From Thermoplasmatota archaeon (GTDB lineage: Archaea > Thermoplasmatota > Thermoplasmata > Thermoplasmatales > Thermoplasmataceae): a DNA stretch of 45,288 nucleotides. A program made the translations under genes and the position numbers. Below are positions 32,172 through 38,387 of this stretch, one piece after another. The notes under the pieces are model-generated. The model searched no databases. It was given only the letters and a program-made list of their open reading frames with translations, and had not been told where the DNA came from. Position 1 is the stretch's first letter. Each line of letters starts with the position of its first letter. Location: positions 1-45,288 of the forward strand of contig JAMDBW010000014.1 in NCBI GenBank assembly GCA_023487765.1, written 5' to 3'.

Positions 32172-33158
32172 TTATAATCCCTCTTCACCAGGTTCAAAGC
32201 AGTCAGGTTCCTCAAACCCGAAGCGCTCCAGCAGAACTGCACCTCTGGCGCAAATAGCCATCCCGTGAAATACTATCTCAATCATTCCCACGAAGGCGTT
32301 GTCATTGTCCAGAAGAAATGCGCCTTCATCGCCATTCTCTGCAAAAACACTGTCTTCAGACATTGCGATGAACTGATCCTGTATAAAGAGAAGATGATTG
32401 TCTCTTATCAGCTTCATTTTCGCATCTATGCAAAGCACCCTGCCCTCTGTAAATCCGGAGGTCCTGCCTGTTTTTCTCACATTCATACCAATACGCGGGT
32501 CAACTGTTCCGCTTGGTCTTCCCAGGTACTTTATTCTCGGGGTGCTCGGTACAACGGTGTTGAGTGTGCCGACGGCGGCATCCAGATCATTTACCGAACC
32601 GGGAGCCAATCTGGAAATAACTGAGAGTTTTGCGAGAGCATAACCGCGCTCAGGGGAATCCAGAACCGAGGGCTGAACGATCACGTCACCTATGTTTGCC
32701 CCGTCTGGAGCCAGTATTTGAGAGGTTGAGACTACGTATTTCCGATCCCCCATGGTGAGGATTCCTCCGATAGTTCCGACAGTCCTGAAATTCATATGGC
32801 CGATCGACACTCCGCCCGGCACAACGTTTTCAGGGCTTGCTTTTATCGGGTCCGGCGTCGAGATCTTCGGGATGCTCGTAACGAGAGGATAGATGCTGAA
32901 TCCCATTTGTGCAGATGAAAACTCATCTTTCAGGGCCAGGCCTGTTTCTTCGTTCTCAACAAAGATATACCAGAAAAATTCAGGAATGTCAAATCCAAGG
33001 CCGAAGCCAACGAATGAATCCACCTCAGCAAGAAGTCTTGCCAGTATCCCCCTGCTCCGTTCTATTTCGCGATCTGCGCAATCAAGATCGCAAGGATGTC
33101 TGGCGATCTTGTAGGCAAATTCCTCAATTTCCTTCTCACAATACCAGCAGATAGCCAC
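32172..33158 (-). CDS. Trypsin-fold protein with replaced catalytic residues
   Basis: A 328-residue soluble protein. The N-terminus has a possible zinc site (CWYC near residue 4 and HPCDLDC near 27), followed by about 60 residues of linker. From GGVSIGHMNF onward it follows a bacterial/archaeal chymotrypsin-like family whose members read SNxHVL, NxVDAAI and GDSGS. Here the His segment is STSQIL (His to Gln), the Asp segment NDLDAAVG is intact, and the Ser segment is GDEGAFLL (Ser to Glu). No peptidase activity is expected; binding or scaffolding is more likely. It starts with GTG, ends 86 bp from the aldehyde dehydrogenase and follows the acetamidase gene. Confidence 0.7.
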   Translation of the reverse strand: MAICWYCEKEIEEFAYKIARHPCDLDCADREIERSRGILARLLAEVDSFVGFGLGFDIPEFFWYIFVENEETGLALKDEFSSAQMGFSIYPLVTSIPKISTPDPIKASPENVVPGGVSIGHMNFRTVGTIGGILTMGDRKYVVSTSQILAPDGANIGDVIVQPSVLDSPERGYALAKLSVISRLAPGSVNDLDAAVGTLNTVVPSTPRIKYLGRPSGTVDPRIGMNVRKTGRTSGFTEGRVLCIDAKMKLIRDNHLLFIQDQFIAMSEDSVFAENGDEGAFLLDNDNAFVGMIEIVFHGMAICARGAVLLERFGFEEPDCFEPGEEGL

Positions 33159-33253
33159 GTCGGAAAGACAACTATGAATTGCTCTTATATTTTTGCAGTG
33201 TCATCGCCGTGGGGCTTAAGTTTCTGTCCAGATGGCAAACACACTGATATTTT

Positions 33254-34180
33254 TCAGTTTCTCGCCATTGCAATTTCCTTTGGCAGTACAGTTGAGACCA
33301 CGAAATTCGGTTCGTCAACAATTTCACTGATTCTAAGGTCTCCTGCCACGCTGCAGAGCATGTATGATTCGTCTGCCGAGTATCCGCAAAGTTTCAGTTC
33401 TTCTATCATGTTAAGGAGCGATTCTCTTGCTGCGGTCTTGAGGTCGCTGTGAATACCCATTGTGACAACAACTTCGCCATTGTAGTTCTCGGAACTGAAA
33501 GCCCTCGGATATTTCATTCCCATTTTTTTGTGAACCTTTATGAAAATTTTTGTTTCAGCAATGGTCTCAATTGCTGTTCCGCATACTTCTCCGTCTCCCT
33601 GTGCCGCATGAGGATCTGCCAGCGATAACAGGGCACCCTCCTGATAAACCGGCAGGAATACACTGGCCCCCTTTTTCAGGAGTTTATTATCCATGTTGCC
33701 ACCGAAAGACTGAGGTGGTATCATCGGATGATCGCCCTCTGCGGGAGAAACTCCCACAATTCCCAGAAAAGGTGATACTCGTATATTAACACCCCTCAGG
33801 AAATCACCGGATGTGGAAGCGATTCCATCTTTTATATCCCAGATAACAAGCCGATTTTCAAACATTCCCTTAAGGAAACCAAAATTCTTGATTATTCCAG
33901 TCCATCCCCAGTCTGCTGTGGAAATATCCATTATTTTCACTTCAAGAACGTCTCCCGGCTCTGCTCCATTTACATATATGGGACCCACTGCTGCATCAAG
34001 CTTCGATGAATCTATACGGGACATATCATCTGTTGACGAGTTACGGTTGATCTGCAAGGTTGAAGAATCAGGTATTTTTACAGTGAGTTCCTGATTATCA
34101 TTGACGTAGAGCACTGGATTCAAAGACGGGCTCCATTTGAAATGAATATTTCGCTCATCAAGACCATTCAGTTTCAACAT
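33254..34180 (-). CDS. Acetamidase/formamidase family protein
   Basis: A 308-residue cytoplasmic amidohydrolase of the FmdA/AmdA family, which releases ammonia from short amides. Diagnostic text: VYVNGAEPGDVLEVKI-like (here IYVNGAEPGDVLEVKIMDI), GIVGVSPAEGDHPMIPPQSFGGNMD, GALLSLADPHAAQGDGEVCGTAIE with the presumed metal/catalytic His and Glu residues. Length is normal. The gene follows htrA by 38 bp, so the two are probably co-transcribed. With the opposite-strand amidase it suggests use of amides as nitrogen sources. Confidence 0.9.
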   Translation of the reverse strand: MLKLNGLDERNIHFKWSPSLNPVLYVNDNQELTVKIPDSSTLQINRNSSTDDMSRIDSSKLDAAVGPIYVNGAEPGDVLEVKIMDISTADWGWTGIIKNFGFLKGMFENRLVIWDIKDGIASTSGDFLRGVNIRVSPFLGIVGVSPAEGDHPMIPPQSFGGNMDNKLLKKGASVFLPVYQEGALLSLADPHAAQGDGEVCGTAIETIAETKIFIKVHKKMGMKYPRAFSSENYNGEVVVTMGIHSDLKTAARESLLNMIEELKLCGYSADESYMLCSVAGDLRISEIVDEPNFVVSTVLPKEIAMARN

Positions 34181-34218: not shown

Positions 34219-35208
34219 TTACTGGGGGTTCGGGGCCCTCCTGTAATTAAGATAATGATCAGGCATCTCCTGAACTTCTATCTCTGTTCTGAACTTTCTT
34301 CCCCCTCTCATGAAACCCAGAGATATGACGTTCCCCATTCCGATTCTGGAAATCCTCTCAAGCAGACTCTTCATGTCAGTCACAGATTCCCCGTTGATGC
34401 TTATTATAATGTCCCATGGTCTCAGTCCTGCCTCAAAAGCCGGGCTCTCCCGGGATATTCTGGCAATTACAACTCCTTTTACGCCTCTGGCCCACAATCG
34501 TGTCTGCATATCGCCTGTAATTGTGCTCCCTGATATGCCGAGCCATGGCCTCACTACCCTGCCGTATTCCAGAATCTGTTCCATTACCCGCTTGATTGTC
34601 ATAGAAGGTATTGCAAATCCCACTCCCTGAGCAAACGCGATTATGGCAGTATTCATCCCTATGACTTTTCCGTCGAGAGTAGATAAAGGTCCGCCACTGT
34701 TGCCCGGATTTATTGCCGCATCAGTCTGTATCAGTCCTTCAAAAATAAAATCGGCCCATGGCATGGGTCTTTCCAGGGCACTAATGACGCCGAGGGATAC
34801 GGAGGGATCGCCGGGGAGTCCCAGTGCATTTCCCACAGCCAGGACAAACTGCCCCGCCTTAAGGTCTTCTGAATCCCCGAGTTCGCAGGGCACAAGACCC
34901 TTTGCGTTAATTTTTATCAGGGCCACGTCAGTTGCGGGATCATTACCTACTATCTCAGCTTCAAAAGTATCACCGTCACGTGTTGTGACTTCCAGTTCCC
35001 GGGATTCCTGCACCACGTGGTTGTTTGTCACAATGTATCCGCTGGAACTCAGGACTATTCCGCTTCCAGCTCCCATTACAGGGAATACTTCGCCATATCT
35101 GTCCGCCTGAAACTTCTTGTTGCGTATCATTACAACACCATCTCTGATTTTCGAGACGGTGTCTGTTATTTCTTTCTGGAAATTTCCTGCACTTATCATT
35201 TTATCCAC
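34219..35208 (-). CDS. HtrA/DegP-type serine protease with PDZ domain
   Basis: A 329-residue S1C protease with an intact triad: His in VTNNHVV, Asp in ATDVALIKI, Ser in NPGNSGGPL. A single PDZ domain covers the last ~90 residues (VIARISRESPAFEAGLRPWDII). There is no signal peptide or transmembrane segment: the protein opens MDKMISAGNFQKEI, so it should work in the cytoplasm, unlike the classical exported HtrA. It heads the run with the acetamidase and the pseudo-protease, and is divergent from an HxlR-type regulator across an 83-bp gap. Confidence 0.92.
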   Translation of the reverse strand: MDKMISAGNFQKEITDTVSKIRDGVVMIRNKKFQADRYGEVFPVMGAGSGIVLSSSGYIVTNNHVVQESRELEVTTRDGDTFEAEIVGNDPATDVALIKINAKGLVPCELGDSEDLKAGQFVLAVGNALGLPGDPSVSLGVISALERPMPWADFIFEGLIQTDAAINPGNSGGPLSTLDGKVIGMNTAIIAFAQGVGFAIPSMTIKRVMEQILEYGRVVRPWLGISGSTITGDMQTRLWARGVKGVVIARISRESPAFEAGLRPWDIIISINGESVTDMKSLLERISRIGMGNVISLGFMRGGRKFRTEIEVQEMPDHYLNYRRAPNPQ

Positions 35209-35246
35209 CGGGGGTAAGTTCGAACCCCAGGTCCAGATTTCCTTCA

Positions 35247-35258
35247 GATTAATATACC
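35247..35258. promoter_or_regulatory. Shared TATA region of the divergent htrA and HxlR genes
   Basis: GATTAATATACC reads as a TATA-like element on both strands (TTAATATACC forward, GGTATATTAATC in reverse). It lies about 35-40 bp from each of the two divergent start codons, so transcription in the two directions may compete. Confidence 0.4.
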
Positions 35259-35274
35259 AGAAAGTATCTCTGGT

Positions 35275-35287
35275 GTTACCTGGTAAC
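35275..35287. promoter_or_regulatory. Palindromic operator candidate GTTACC-T-GGTAAC
   Basis: A perfect 13-bp palindrome sits 4 bp ahead of the HxlR-type start codon and downstream of the shared TATA element. This is where a dimeric winged-helix repressor would block its own gene. Confidence 0.5.
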
Positions 35288-35291
35288 AGAA

Positions 35292-35681
35292 ATGGTTGAG
35301 GTAAAAGTCATTTCCAAGCTTGAAGAAAAAGAGGGAGCCGCATTCAATGTGCTCAGTCAAGTCTCAAGTACGTGGGCGATCCCAGTCATACTGCGTCTTG
35401 GTTATTTCGAGGTCCTTAGATACAATCAGTTGAAAAACACATTGAAGAACGTCAGTTCTCGAAGCCTCTCAAGAACCCTGTCTTCTCTCGTTTCCAGTGG
35501 TATTGTTTCCAGGGAGGTCAGGAACGGATCGCCGCCCCGGGTCTTTTATTCGCTTACTGAGAGAGGTACAGAGTTAGCGGAACTGTTGGACAGCATGTCT
35601 GAGTTGGGCATCAAGTGGGATAGTTCAGAACCCGATTCAGAAACGATTGAAGTTTCCGTGGCAGGATCTCCGCCGGCTTAA
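35292..35681 (+). CDS. HxlR-type winged-helix regulator
   Basis: A 129-residue MarR/HxlR-like DNA-binding protein. The core reads WAIPVILRLGYFEVLRYNQLKN, then SSRSLSRTLSSLVSSGIVSRE (recognition helix) and RVFYSLTERGTEL (wing), the usual HxlR order. The characteristic HxlR cysteine of redox sensors is absent. A perfect palindrome just upstream suggests autoregulation and control of the divergent htrA operon. The last 20 residues (SEPDSETIEVSVAGSPPA) look disordered. Confidence 0.88.
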   Translation: MVEVKVISKLEEKEGAAFNVLSQVSSTWAIPVILRLGYFEVLRYNQLKNTLKNVSSRSLSRTLSSLVSSGIVSREVRNGSPPRVFYSLTERGTELAELLDSMSELGIKWDSSEPDSETIEVSVAGSPPA

Positions 35682-37142: not shown

Positions 37143-38387
37143 ATGAAGGTAATCAGGACTGAACAGATATACATCAGGAAAAATGCCACAGTATCAAGGG
37201 CATGCCATCTCTCCAGCAACCTGTACAACCAGGTGAATTACATCCTCAGGCAACAGTTCCTGAAGCATGAAAAGCCCAGCGGATATAATGCGCTTGCAAA
37301 ACAGTTTTCCATGCCATCTGGAAACGATGATCATGACAACTACAGCAAACTTCCGGCACAGACGGCACAGTGGACCATAAAAAAGGTGAAGCAGGCATGG
37401 AACTCCTACTTCAAAGCCATGAACGCGTACAGAAGATATCCTGAAAAATTCACAGGAAAGCCGAAAATACCGGGATACAGGGAGAAGAACGGGGAATTCA
37501 TCCTGACATTCACCAACCAGCAGTGCAGCATCAGGGACGGTATCCTGAAATTCCCGAAGATAATGGAACTGGAGGTGAAGACAGGACTGGAGAATGTGAA
37601 TCTGAGAGAGGTCAGGATAATTCCAAAGGGATCGGGTTACACTGTGGAAATAGTATATGCGAAAGAGATCGCGGCTCCGACAGCGAAAAAGCCTGAACGC
37701 ATCATGGGTATCGATATCGGCGTGAGGAATCTTGTAACCATTGGCAACAACATCTCCGTACAGGGGATTGCTGTAAGGGCAGGATTGCTTAGATCGATAA
37801 ACCAGTTCTTCAACAAAGAACTTGCGAGACTGAGATCGATAAACGATCTTCAGGGAAATGAGGAAAAGCAGACAAAACGGATACAGAAACTCTTCATGGT
37901 ACGGAACAGGAAGGTGAAGGACATCATGCACAAACTCAGCAGGTCCATAGTGGAATACGCATCGTCAGGAGGCATCGATACAATAGTCATCGGCCACAAT
38001 GAAGGATGGAAACAGTCGGTGAACATGGGAGGGAAAAACAACCAGAACTTCGTGCAGTTACCCTTCAACATGCTGATCAGCCAGCTCAGGTACAAGGCCG
38101 AAGAGAAAGGCATAAACGTCATAATACAGGAGGAGAACCACACAAGCAGATGTTCATTCCTTGACAGCGAGACCATAGAACACCATGACACATACACGGG
38201 CAGGAGAATAAGCAGAGGCGTATTCCAGTCTGCAGCCGGAACACTAATACATGCAGATCTCAACGGATCGTACAACATAATAAAAAAGGCAATCCCCGAA
38301 GCATTCGCGAACGGGATAGAGGGTGTAGGGTTATATCCGCGAAGTTTAAGCATCAGTCAGATGATAACTTCCAAAGGTGGATGTTAA
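37143..38387 (+). CDS. tnpB: TnpB-like RNA-guided nuclease (IS200/IS605 OrfB)
   Basis: A 414-residue TnpB with an intact RuvC triad: Asp in GIDIGVRNLVTIG, Glu in IIQEENHTSRCSFLD, and Asp in HADLNGSYNI. The usual CxxC...CxxC zinc finger between the last two is missing; instead SFLDSETIEHHDTYTGRRISRG is present, typical of one archaeal/bacterial TnpB branch. TnpB nucleases cut DNA next to a target motif, guided by a transcript from the element's right end. No TnpA transposase lies nearby, so movement would need one in trans. GGAGG precedes the ATG. Confidence 0.92.
   Translation: MKVIRTEQIYIRKNATVSRACHLSSNLYNQVNYILRQQFLKHEKPSGYNALAKQFSMPSGNDDHDNYSKLPAQTAQWTIKKVKQAWNSYFKAMNAYRRYPEKFTGKPKIPGYREKNGEFILTFTNQQCSIRDGILKFPKIMELEVKTGLENVNLREVRIIPKGSGYTVEIVYAKEIAAPTAKKPERIMGIDIGVRNLVTIGNNISVQGIAVRAGLLRSINQFFNKELARLRSINDLQGNEEKQTKRIQKLFMVRNRKVKDIMHKLSRSIVEYASSGGIDTIVIGHNEGWKQSVNMGGKNNQNFVQLPFNMLISQLRYKAEEKGINVIIQEENHTSRCSFLDSETIEHHDTYTGRRISRGVFQSAAGTLIHADLNGSYNIIKKAIPEAFANGIEGVGLYPRSLSISQMITSKGGC

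Follow-up and report, generated by a model that had tools for sequence, protein, structure and literature searches.

The window, the whole 45,288-nucleotide stretch of Thermoplasmatota DNA that was analysed, carries on its minus strand at 32172..33158 a real open reading frame that begins with GTG and encodes a protein of 328 amino acids, referred to here as the pseudoprotease. A TATA-like sequence, AAAAATATAAG, can be read directly about 30 nt before the GTG (33185..33195, minus strand), which suggests that the gene is transcribed from a separate promoter into an mRNA with a short leader or none. The same box precedes the gene at a second locus (L002); upstream of more remote members of the family it cannot be clearly recognized. 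Upstream on the same strand lie an acetamidase/formamidase gene (33254..34180; FmdA_AmdA by a Pfam-type domain match) and, beyond it, the gene of an HtrA-like protease with Trypsin_2 and PDZ domains (34219..35208). Divergent from the latter is a gene for an HxlR-type regulator (35292..35681, plus strand), a conserved neighbour of HtrA across this archaeal family. Further along, a TnpB/OrfB-like transposon-encoded gene was recognized at 37143-38387 by reading its translation by eye. The host group, judging from its lineage, is acidophilic.

We regard it as settled that the encoded protein is a Nal1-type chymotrypsin-fold (S1-like) protein, the fold being predicted and backed by sequence homology. 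Taken singly, the window protein gave only sub-threshold Pfam matches, to Nal1_C (PF25819, 5.4e-5; 22.9 bits against a curated cut-off of 26.1 bits) and to Peptidase_S64, and all 12 aligned members of the pseudoprotease family match these same two entries (best PF25819 match 1.4e-6). Searched against the PDB, the family profile found rice NARROW LEAF 1 (7y77) at 1.7e-5, and at 9.3e-14 once intact relatives were added to the profile. The AlphaFold2 model, built from an alignment of mainly distant relatives (the window protein, L013 and 22 relatives from viral contigs), has a mean pLDDT of 75.7 and a pTM of 0.79. In a Foldseek search with this model, rice Nal1 accounts for every one of the top 32 PDB matches (E 2.5e-11 to 5.9e-9, TM about 0.6), and streptogrisin B and alpha-lytic protease come next. 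A trypsin fold, as proposed in the first-pass annotation of this DNA, is therefore also what structure prediction returns. The trypsin-like domain spans approximately residues 113-315 (32214..32822, minus strand), as delimited by the profile matches and the model. It is preceded by a predicted alpha/beta domain, approximately residues 25-95 (32874..33086, minus strand), which would correspond to the domain at the N terminus of Nal1-type proteases; this assignment draws on the aligned NVVGVGIG..V.V segment, the helices and strands of the model and the whole-length match to Nal1.

The motifs named in the first-pass annotation, GGVSIGH (residues 115-121), GDVIVQPS (157-164) and VRKTGRTSGF (227-236), are present as quoted, and the catalytic positions around them have changed as the first reading held. 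On alignment to intact relatives, LSNNHVL becomes VSTSQIL, N.VDAA becomes NDLDAA and GDSGS becomes GDEGA, so that the former catalytic His position is Gln147 (CAA, 32718..32720), the catalytic Asp is kept as Asp193 (GAT, 32580..32582) and the former catalytic Ser position is Glu278 (GAA, 32325..32327), all on the minus strand. The Ser position is Glu, within GDEG, in all 13 members of the pseudoprotease family, encoded throughout by GAA or GAG, and no member has an intact triad. The His position is variable, being Ser in nine members (counting L089), Arg in two and Gln only in the two closest members, both of genus g1. Outside the family, His-Asp-Ser is kept in 53 of 53 readable relatives, comprising four bacterial plasmid proteins and 49 proteins, including two identical ones, from IMG/VR contigs and from archaea of this phylum; in the truncated frames L034 and L077 the triad positions cannot be fully read. 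The 40 invariant columns of the family alignment include D193, D277, E278 and G279 and exclude the His column, and no invariant His was found anywhere in that alignment, which rules out a displaced triad. Neither of the outcomes that would have refuted the first reading, a predicted fold other than chymotrypsin-like or an orthologue with an intact triad, was observed. Serine-protease catalysis is almost certainly lost, because the nucleophile position is occupied by Glu and the general-base position by Gln. The His-Asp-Ser triad of an active serine peptidase is thus no longer complete, while the features of a trypsin-fold pseudoprotease, namely lost catalytic residues in a fold and gene that are under selection, are present. 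In S1 proteases the FAGS segment after the catalytic Ser pairs with the substrate backbone; in the pseudoprotease family this segment is replaced and variable, which weakens the earlier suggestion of a peptide sensor.

The extreme N terminus carries a second distinguishing feature, a Cys module in residues 1-30 (C4, C7, C23 and C27; 33069..33158, minus strand). All 12 aligned members have C4, C7 and C27. The fourth, C23, is Cys in 8 of 13 members; this position is Cys in g1 and g12 and is taken by Tyr or Phe, with His residues nearby, in g7, g3 and g5. A treble-clef or LIM-like zinc finger would have four metal ligands. A search of the proteins of 41 genomes returned convincing E-values for the module only within the pseudoprotease family, and none of the 12 aligned members has a Pfam zinc-finger match. 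Most of residues 1-22 are modelled with low confidence (pLDDT <50). The Cys cluster seen in the first-pass annotation is therefore real and conserved, and by its pattern it is likely a zinc site.

The gene occurs in 13 genomes from five genera (g1, g3, g5, g7 and g12) among 77 genomes of one archaeal family within Thermoplasmatota. This count leaves out four weak matches in g13 (L038, L091-L093), which are thiolases that share a GGGISIGH stretch and are not relatives. Other families of this class and phylum have intact Nal1-type relatives. In a tree built without the catalytic columns, the pseudoproteases form a single clade with support of 99/91. The reading frame is intact in all 13 genomes; dN/dS is 0.05 between the window protein and its 93%-identical nearest relative, and 0.007-0.022 in the remaining pairs that could be estimated. 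On these alignments the Ser and His substitutions are beyond chance or sequencing error, and the pseudoproteases of Nal1 type described here are a real, previously unannotated family. Furthermore, the invariance of Glu278, its fixation in one clade and the strong purifying selection speak for a selected role of this residue rather than mere loss.

The genomic context of the pseudoprotease differs among genera. HtrA lies upstream on the same strand in seven genomes, five of g1 (G000, G001, G002, G004 and G005) and two of g12 (G016 and G032). Its His-Asp-Ser triad is intact in the window and in all seven linked genomes, and the window HtrA has no obvious signal peptide. The acetamidase gene stands between the two in two of the five g1 genomes (G000 and G002, the latter copy with 89% identity) and in both g12 genomes. 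An opposite-strand radical-SAM gene also intervenes in g12, as does an opposite-strand histidine-phosphatase gene in G004 and G005. Within 10 kb of the g12 pseudoproteases, only HxlR, HtrA, acetamidase and the pseudoprotease match this part of the window, and HtrA is about 50% identical between g1 and g12. Since the other genes within this distance differ, HxlR-HtrA-(acetamidase)-pseudoprotease constitutes an island of kept order. In g3, g5 and g7, on the other hand, different genes flank the pseudoprotease, with g5 again unlike g3 and g7, and any HtrA gene detected lies on a separate contig. The run of pseudoprotease, HtrA and amidase originally described thus extends across g1 and g12, with the acetamidase in four of the seven genomes, and does not extend to the other three genera. 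HtrA is present in 10 of the 13 genomes with the pseudoprotease versus 29 of the 64 without it (Fisher one-sided p = 0.036, a value that ignores shared ancestry and assembly incompleteness), and its presence in those 29 genomes means that HtrA works without the pseudoprotease. The pair formed by HtrA and its divergent HxlR-type regulator (34219-35681; L094-L107) is conserved in most of the genera examined, independently of the pseudoprotease.

A second neighbour belongs to the Ta1207 family (PF19020; 35944-36888 in the window), which is expanded, each of the 12 genomes checked having 4-11 copies, and is absent from 14 control genomes. In g7 and g3 a Ta1207-family gene lies directly downstream of the pseudoprotease on the same strand, with an 8-bp gap, and is followed by GlgB. 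In g1, Ta1207 genes are also found ≤2 kb from HtrA. Around the g5 pseudoprotease no Ta1207 gene was detected, and the closest ones in g12 lie about 10 kb or more from the pseudoprotease. In g7, the pseudoprotease and Ta1207 genes precede a GlgB-GlgE-trehalose-synthase-like-maltokinase-like cluster (L046:9674-19076; also L047 and L045), and in g5 (L107) it is HtrA that lies near GlgB/GlgE-like genes.

Taken together, we propose, with a probability of roughly 0.6 for the explanation as a whole, that the pseudoprotease is a non-catalytic Nal1-type binding protein that in this lineage most likely acts with HtrA. That the fold, Glu278 and the Cys module are all strongly selected argues that the protein would be kept for binding and not for cutting. 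Invariant Glu278 and Asp193, together with the GD-G oxyanion-hole residues, would probably lock the loop of the old active site in a single, occupied state, so that Glu278 may plug the former active site. The Cys module would probably bind zinc and either mediate contact or sense the metal or redox state. Given that the FAGS segment is replaced and variable, contact through other surfaces is likelier than canonical substrate-like binding in the cleft. In this lineage the most likely partner would be the neighbouring active HtrA, which the pseudoprotease may regulate or feed with substrates. We put this partnership forward as a tentative hypothesis, at somewhat under even odds. The role of HtrA regulator or adaptor suggested in the first-pass annotation is plausible from the linkage in g1 and g12, a linkage that is only partly general and fails in g3, g5 and g7. 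The possible separate promoter of the pseudoprotease gene also speaks against this role.

The explanation that competes most closely keeps the non-catalytic binder and changes its partner: the protein could be a stand-alone metal- or redox-responsive adaptor working through its Cys module, or could act with a Ta1207 protein. The Cys module is invariant while linkage to HtrA is variable, and the 8-bp spacing of the Ta1207 gene in g7 and g3 and the closeness of Ta1207 to HtrA in g1 are as a Ta1207 partnership would have them. However, with so many copies of Ta1207 per genome such nearness can be chance, and the family is missing from the vicinity of the pseudoprotease in g5 and distant in g12. 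We consider a partner other than HtrA unlikely, though with an appreciable chance of being right. Far less probable is that the protein remains a peptidase of another mechanism, working with a carboxyl dyad of Glu278 and Asp193 like that of aspartic or glutamic (eqolisin-type) enzymes, a chemistry suited to an acidophile. Both residues are strictly invariant, and the window protein moreover has Gln147 paired with Glu278; Gln and Glu are the residue pair used by eqolisins. Nevertheless, the His position holds Ser or Arg in all but the two closest g1 members, the substrate-pairing FAGS segment is lost, and no enzyme of chymotrypsin fold is known to us to use such a dyad. An eqolisin-like Glu-Gln dyad in particular was rejected for the family, as Gln147 is not conserved. 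Finally, that this is a decaying gene whose triad residues drifted after loss of function would account for their absence and for the variable His position, but is refuted, with a vanishingly small remaining chance, by the dN/dS of 0.05, the intact frames in 13 genomes, the invariant Glu and the conserved Cys residues.

Most work on pseudoproteases concerns animals and a handful of bacteria. Haptoglobin and azurocidin are animal S1 pseudoproteases with a chymotrypsin fold that have lost catalytic residues and are kept for binding; they differ from the protein described here in lineage, in their substitutions and in being secreted animal proteins. Literature searches in an open-access library turned up no archaeal or Nal1-family pseudoprotease. 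The closest structural counterpart of the pseudoprotease is rice NARROW LEAF 1 itself (PF25819; PDB 7y77, 8pn2, 8has), which it resembles over the whole length of the fold, including the N-terminal domain, in the sequence profile and in the GRTSG and GD.G motifs. Nal1, in contrast, has GDSGS where the pseudoprotease family has GDEG, and the match excludes the Cys module. In Thermoplasmatota, on viral contigs and on bacterial plasmids, the intact Nal1-type proteases share GGVSIGH, QP and GRTTG at about 23-30% identity, but keep His-Asp-Ser and lack the Cys module. The fixed, clade-wide replacement of Ser by Glu offers a clean natural experiment on the chymotrypsin fold without catalysis.

A functional parallel is provided by MamO of magnetotactic bacteria, a trypsin-fold protein with a degenerate triad, which its HtrA partner MamE needs for proteolysis (PMC4794232); an HtrA partner of this sort thus has a natural precedent. 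As in the window, a trypsin fold with a degenerate active site is found alongside an active HtrA. In MamO, Ser is replaced by Thr and Gly193 by Glu, His and Asp are kept and a TauE membrane domain is present (PMC4794232), whereas the pseudoprotease has Ser replaced by Glu, has lost the His, keeps the Gly of GD.G and is of Nal1 type. We speculate that a Glu-plugged, Nal1-derived pseudoprotease may switch or target cytoplasmic HtrA through its zinc module, and so be an archaeal equivalent of MamO/MamE that arose independently from another family of proteases; in this full form the proposal is doubtful. Were the HtrA link true, regulators of HtrA derived from inactive proteases would have originated independently twice.

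Relatives of the pseudoprotease were also sought with its profile among viral contigs, and none were found. Relatives of Nal1-type proteases, with the triad intact wherever it is readable, are encoded by 29 IMG/VR viral contigs (L054-L082) and possibly represent a phage protease. On two Rhizobium plasmids (L120:1-1652 and L122:1-1397), an intact Nal1-type protease gene adjoins the gene of a putative peptide modification protein with a HEXXH motif, and the two may form a peptide-maturation pair.
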